Below the pieces are notes generated by a model. That model did not search any database, was not told the origin of the DNA, and saw only the letters and a list, made by a program, of their open reading frames with translations. A DNA stretch of 64,000 nt from Phalacrocorax aristotelis. Its lineage: Eukaryota; Chordata; Aves; Suliformes; Phalacrocoracidae. Numbering within the stretch: position 1 is the stretch's first letter; every line of letters starts with the position of its first letter. The stretch is from assembly GCF_949628215.1 (NCBI RefSeq), contig NC_134282.1, positions 4,943,001 to 5,007,000 of the forward strand, read 5' to 3'. Of this stretch, positions 41,601 to 42,087 are shown in pieces. Position numbers and translations under genes: made by a program.

Positions 41601-42087
41601 TCGCGTGGCGGGTGGGGAGGCCCTGCAATGACTAACCCTAATGGCTGCCGCTGCGCTCCCCGCGCCCGTCCGCTGTTTTACTCGCTGACTTTCAGCGGAC
41701 GAGGGGAGTAGCCCGGGGGTGGGGGTGGGGGAAAGAAGGGGGTCTGCCATTAAAAAAAAACGTCAGCGAGGGGGGCTCCTCACCCAGGCCCGCCCTGGGG
41801 TCCTCGTGTCCCGTCGTGTGTCTCCCCCGCACCCGGGGACCCGCCGCGGAGGTTCCCGCCGCCGCCGCCCGACCCCCCAGGAGGCCGCGGTCGGCCGGCT
41901 CCCCGCCACTGCCGCCGCGAAGAGCTCGTCTCTGTCAGCCTCGGCGGCGGCGACCGGGAACGGAGGGAGGCGCCCCCGCGCCCGCGGGGGACCCCAGCAG
42001 AGCAAAACGGGAGCGGCGCCGCCGGGATAAACCCGCCGCGCTTCCCTCAGCCGTGGGGCGCGCGCGGCCGGCGCCGCTCCGACACGC
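41601..42087 (+). ncRNA. TERC: telomerase RNA component (TERC/TR)
   Basis: Telomerase RNA, the RNA subunit that templates telomere synthesis with TERT. The 5' end CGCGTGGCGGGTGG resembles chicken TR. The template CTAACCCTAAT is at 41,632-41,642. The pseudoknot is clear: P2a CTCCCC/GGGGAG (41,656-41,661 with 41,703-41,708), P2b GTCCGCTG/CAGCGGAC (41,668-41,675 with 41,693-41,700), and P3 CTCGCTGAC/GTCAGCGAG (41,681-41,689 with 41,762-41,770), with T4 and A9 tracts for the triple helix. CR4/5 spans about 41,880-41,940, including GGAGGCCGCGGTCGGCC and the P6.1 hairpin GAG-CTCGT-CTC. The H box AGAGCA is at 41,999-42,004 and ACA at 42,082-42,084, three bases before the inferred 3' end. The length, about 487 nt, is close to chicken's 465. 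It is divergent from MYNN, about 4.2 kb away, as in human. Confidence 0.97.

Follow-up and report, generated by a model that had tools for sequence, protein, structure and literature searches.

A complete telomerase RNA gene of Phalacrocorax aristotelis with a variant CAB box and a strong G-quadruplex motif

Here, we describe a telomerase RNA (TERC) gene of Phalacrocorax aristotelis at 41601..42087 on the + strand of a 64-kb window (C7:4943001-5007000), the whole stretch of DNA that was analysed, from an assembly of 1,278,995,914 bases in 352 contigs. The locus belongs to a known family and carries two small oddities: its pseudoknot loop contains a strong G-quadruplex motif, and its Cajal-body signal is altered. 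An earlier note had proposed a complete telomerase RNA gene at these positions and named an Infernal search with the vertebrate telomerase RNA model, RF00024, as its check. Rfam release 15, run over the whole window, was strongly positive: RF00024 matched 41606-42087 (+) over its full length (model 1-443 of 443) at 159.4 bits, E 4.2e-39, against a gathering score of 70, and the template and ACA box fell where they had first been placed. Only two matches in the 64 kb reached gathering level, this one and a tRNA, and a low-threshold search of 36-46 kb added one sub-threshold match, RMST_3, at 24.3 bits versus 55. Because the RF00024 match is joined by correctly ordered elements, a single match in the genome, a MYNN neighbour, and TERT, a dyskerin domain and TTAGGG arrays elsewhere in the genome, the locus is almost certainly an ordinary TERC ortholog, one that in our proposed view makes an RNA of about 487 nt. 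We infer that it is transcribed, yields an RNA with these ends, assembles with protein and supports telomerase activity.

The elements of the RNA lie in the order claimed for them, namely template, pseudoknot, P6.1, H box and ACA box, with P1 likewise in place. In the RF00024 alignment the template is CUAACCCUAAU (41632..41642, +), which spans 1.5-2 telomere repeats and matches the TTAGGG of the host; its DNA 11-mer, CTAACCCTAAT, is present in a single copy in the window, both strands counted. Fold computation pairs the 5' strand of P1 (41610..41619, +) with its 3' strand (41776..41785, +) through 10 bp, one of them G-U, at a probability of 0.989 whether the quadruplex term is on or off. The 5' strand of P2b (41667..41675, +) pairs with 41693-41701 (9 bp), and that of P3 (41683..41692, +) is complementary to 41758-41768 around a bulged C at 41761, with 7 bp between 41683-41689 and 41762-41768, then the bulged C, then three U-A pairs. 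The P2b/P3 pseudoknot is predicted from the complementarity of these strands alone, the P3 probability of 0.0 in nested folds being that of a method that cannot represent pseudoknots.

Downstream, the CR4/5 core occupies 41882..41940 (+), with P6 taken from the Rfam alignment and P6.1 at 41921-41933 around the loop CUCGU. The P6.1 hairpin, AGAG-CUCGU-CUCU, is present in the best fold of 41877-41975, in agreement with the alignment, though the minimum-energy fold of 41870-41970 lacks it. The H/ACA half shows an H box, AGAGCA (41999..42004, +), in both the sequence and the Rfam alignment, a 3' arm that folds, and an ACA box (42082..42084, +) three bases before 42087. Template, pseudoknot, CR4/5 with P6.1 and H/ACA are thereby common to this RNA and the RF00024 family, which includes chicken TR, whereas J2b/3 departs from the consensus in having an A following UUUU. 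We also looked for a reading frame like hTERP, which is described as 121 aa in the available part of PMC7355840; two ATG frames begin within the RNA and encode just 27 and 15 aa, so neither could give the 121 aa of hTERP.

Upstream of the RNA, two CCAAT boxes (CCAAT at 41507 and 41538) stand in a repeated CGACCAATGG context at 41504..41547 (+), and a TATA-like box, TTTAAGA (41571..41577, +), lies 30 bases 5' of the proposed RNA start. Both presumably act in transcription, and their presence bears out the CCAAT/TATA promoter of the earlier note. The ends proposed for the RNA appear to fit as well, 41601 with the TATA spacing and 42087 with the position three bases beyond the ACA box. A CACGTG E-box occurs further upstream at 41423 (+). 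Three of the nine + strand CCCTAAA units of the window, which are telomere-like, are clustered within 81 bases (41260, 41314 and 41334, +) and precede the RNA start by some 270-340 bases. A motif of the first exon of MECOM was unmatched.

The neighbouring gene is MYNN (myoneurin; 30598..36723, -), identified by a BTB frame at 36424-36723 and C2H2 zinc-finger frames between 30598 and 34532. The BTB frame scores 174.6 bits against the solved myoneurin BTB chain 2vpk, compared with 119.4 for the next chain. MYNN and TERC are arranged head to head on opposite strands, and MYNN lies beside TERC in mammals too, a neighbour common to both. The CpG-rich sequence that separates TERC from the BTB frame of MYNN contains a tRNA-Val(AAC) gene found by Rfam (37849..37921, -). 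Elsewhere in the window there is a leucine-rich-repeat frame (8046-8993, -) with an LRR_8 score of 95.3 bits, and frames at 138-515 (+) and 6776-7114 (-) matched LRR models below their cut-offs. A 143-aa open frame at 45185-45613 (+) is without a Pfam match at E 0.001.

These surroundings bear on whether the gene belongs to the host at all. Marek's disease virus carries a telomerase RNA, vTR, that is given as 88% identical to chicken TR in the part of PMC2929889 available to us, and because of that identity sequence alone could mislead on host versus virus. The RNA described here shares its family with vTR, yet its locus is that of a host: MYNN and the leucine-rich-repeat gene flank it, 7 of the 10 window frames sent to Pfam matched host-type families (the other three matched nothing), and RF00024 found one match in the assembly, at 159.4 bits, among the best 27 of 5772 first-look candidates scored. 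That the window holds the telomerase RNA of an integrated herpesvirus is therefore scarcely credible. Three scans of viral contigs with conserved CR4/5 or pseudoknot patterns, aimed at relatives from which to gauge divergence, returned 0 matches each.

The same single RF00024 match argues against a decayed or retrotransposed TERC copy, a reading to which the departure of the CAB/BIO loop from consensus might otherwise lend some weight. A processed pseudogene would lack its own promoter and have a parental gene at another locus, whereas promoter elements exist here, MYNN is adjacent, the template is intact and the pseudoknot strands are complementary. When the TERC gene was used as the query in a DNA search of the assembly, it returned one full-length match, itself, and a second match at C96:96099-96158, 60 bases long and 80% identical. 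The latter is GC-rich sequence surrounding a GCC run, with 40 of 48 bases identical upon realignment. We consider a pseudogene very improbable, and return to the locus as an ordinary TERC gene.

Other parts of a telomerase system can be found in the same genome. The TERT RNA-binding domain has two matches on C2, at 77.5 bits (within a 714-aa open frame) and 67.8 bits, both above the cut-off of 25; the weaker stretch contains two stops, which we take to be exon ends. The dyskerin-like domain DKCLD has two matches on C11, at 39.3 and 39.0 bits (the latter with two stops), against a cut-off of 27. The telomere repeat in the form (TTAGGG)8 gave 15,415 matches, overlaps included (5894 forward and 9521 reverse), compared with none in either direction for the reversed control.

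The first oddity of the RNA lies in J2a/3, where mostly G runs replace the letters of the RF00024 consensus. Pattern search, shuffles and folding together mark GGGGGTGGGGGTGGGGGAAAGAAGGGGG (41715..41742, +), four runs of five G, as a G-quadruplex motif. It is the sole + strand motif in the window with four runs of at least five G, and the - strand has one counterpart at 61606-61634; looser G3-type stretches number 19 on the + strand and 10 on the - strand. None of 2000 dinucleotide shuffles of the 487-base RNA contained the five-G motif, while the looser G3 motif arose in 408 of 2000, indicating that G richness alone readily yields weak motifs. By G4Hunter the motif in the telomerase RNA scores 2.76, below the window extremes of 2.92 (63848) and -3.48 (61606). 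Between 60000 and 64000 lies another block that is rich in CpG and in G runs and has numerous quadruplex motifs on each strand.

Folding of the core depends strongly on how this segment is treated. With quadruplexes disallowed, P2b has a probability of 0.036 in the core (41601-41790) and the C-rich P2 strand is occupied by other G runs; with quadruplexes allowed, P2b reaches 0.974 and the energy drops from -91.3 to -123.4 kcal/mol. The minimum-energy fold without quadruplexes misses P2b in the whole core and recovers it in the short piece 41660-41705, and replacement of 41715-41742 by A gives a P2b of 0.98 with or without quadruplexes. Part of the effect is due to composition alone, since 60 shuffles of the segment also raised mean P2b, from 0.37 without to 0.89 with quadruplexes. 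The energy gained from quadruplexes, in a program whose quadruplex energies are rough, was 32.1 for the real order, compared with a shuffle mean of 10.6 and maximum of 29.3 (n=60). As modelled, J2a/3 may form a quadruplex from its runs of five G, and this would keep those runs off the C-rich P2 strand.

G runs are also found in human TR, which forms a G-quadruplex that is unfolded by DHX36, as set out in the portion of PMC7355840 at hand. The human structure lies at the 5' end, whereas the motif here lies in a pseudoknot loop and its formation is a prediction. One could imagine that J2a/3 forms a stable quadruplex with as many as five tetrads and that this serves as a chaperone or switch for folding: once formed, it would free the P2 strand and let the pseudoknot form, and once unwound, for instance by a helicase of the DHX36 type, its G runs would invade P2 and shut off the core, the CAB box having drifted alongside to UCAG. 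We think this model unlikely to be right, given the rough energies, nested folding without the pseudoknot and a motif known from one bird. Among the matches listed in a search of the open-licence literature, no title dealt with the CAB box in the TR of birds or with a quadruplex within the pseudoknot loop of TR, and either may be in print elsewhere.

The second oddity is in the CR7/P8 apical hairpin (42044..42057, +), which was placed by the Rfam alignment and fold and carries variant CAB and BIO boxes. Its loop reads UCAGCCGU, compared with UGAGCUGU in the Rfam consensus, and the aligned CAB/BIO octamer, CCUCAGCCGUGG, differs from the consensus CCUGAGCUGUGG at two positions. The CAB box is UCAG in place of UGAG, so that the second base is changed and the A and G are retained; the earlier note had made no mention of this departure from the consensus. 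The first three bases of the octamer have unpaired probabilities of 0.36, 0.23 and 0.37 in the predicted fold, versus 0.85, 0.90 and 0.96 with the consensus octamer, although, for the arm folded in isolation, the top registers are only 0.1 kcal/mol apart. The CAB box is defined as ugAG, and TCAB1 makes base-specific contacts to the A and G, according to the part of PMC10811338 available; since both are kept, UCAG probably still works.

Could the RNA instead be functional but no longer targeted to Cajal bodies, in a species that has lost TCAB1? The CAB box is conserved across most vertebrate TRs and absent in teleosts, as far as the accessible portion of PMC8480181 describes, so teleost TRs offer a parallel, and UCAG does replace UGAG here. 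A TCAB1 ortholog was not found in the assembly either, with all 16 candidates scored: the query gave one match only, a WD40-like stretch at 32% identity and 37.2 bits, which we read as another WD40 protein. Against such a loss, besides the retained A and G, TP53 seems to be missing as well. A search of the assembly for the p53 DNA-binding family (all 10 candidates scored) gave six matches at two loci, on C7 and C19, which we take to be TP63 and TP73; there was no third p53-family locus in the assembly, and TP53 and WRAP53 both seem missing. TP53 and WRAP53 adjoin in mammals, and a shared assembly gap is therefore the likely and simplest account of their absence, which sets back the idea that TCAB1 was lost. 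In addition, of the two scaRNAs seen in the genome, with alignments read by eye, SCARNA15 carries UGAG in its 3' apical loop and SCARNA4 shows AGAG at the position of the consensus ggAG. If these are their CAB boxes, as we infer, this animal probably has a CAB pathway and probably tolerates a variant of ugAG. Loss of Cajal-body targeting is thus improbable, and a TERC gene with a variant CAB box that probably still works is the reading we retain.

Under that reading, the promoter would drive an RNA of roughly 487 nt that encodes no protein. Dyskerin and the proteins associated with it would bind the H/ACA half, serving to form the 3' end and stabilise the RNA. TERT would be bound by P6.1 and the pseudoknot, and CUAACCCUAAU would be copied into TTAGGG repeats. 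In one annotation survey, telomerase RNA was named in 6 of 48 bird genomes and missing from 42, as reported in the part of PMC4378963 seen. Given how few bird genomes have it named, work on avian telomeres gains a useful reference point from a TERC locus that is complete and comes with its promoter and neighbours, and the quadruplex motif and the CAB variant each offer a direct way to test how function is preserved in an RNA that evolves fast.
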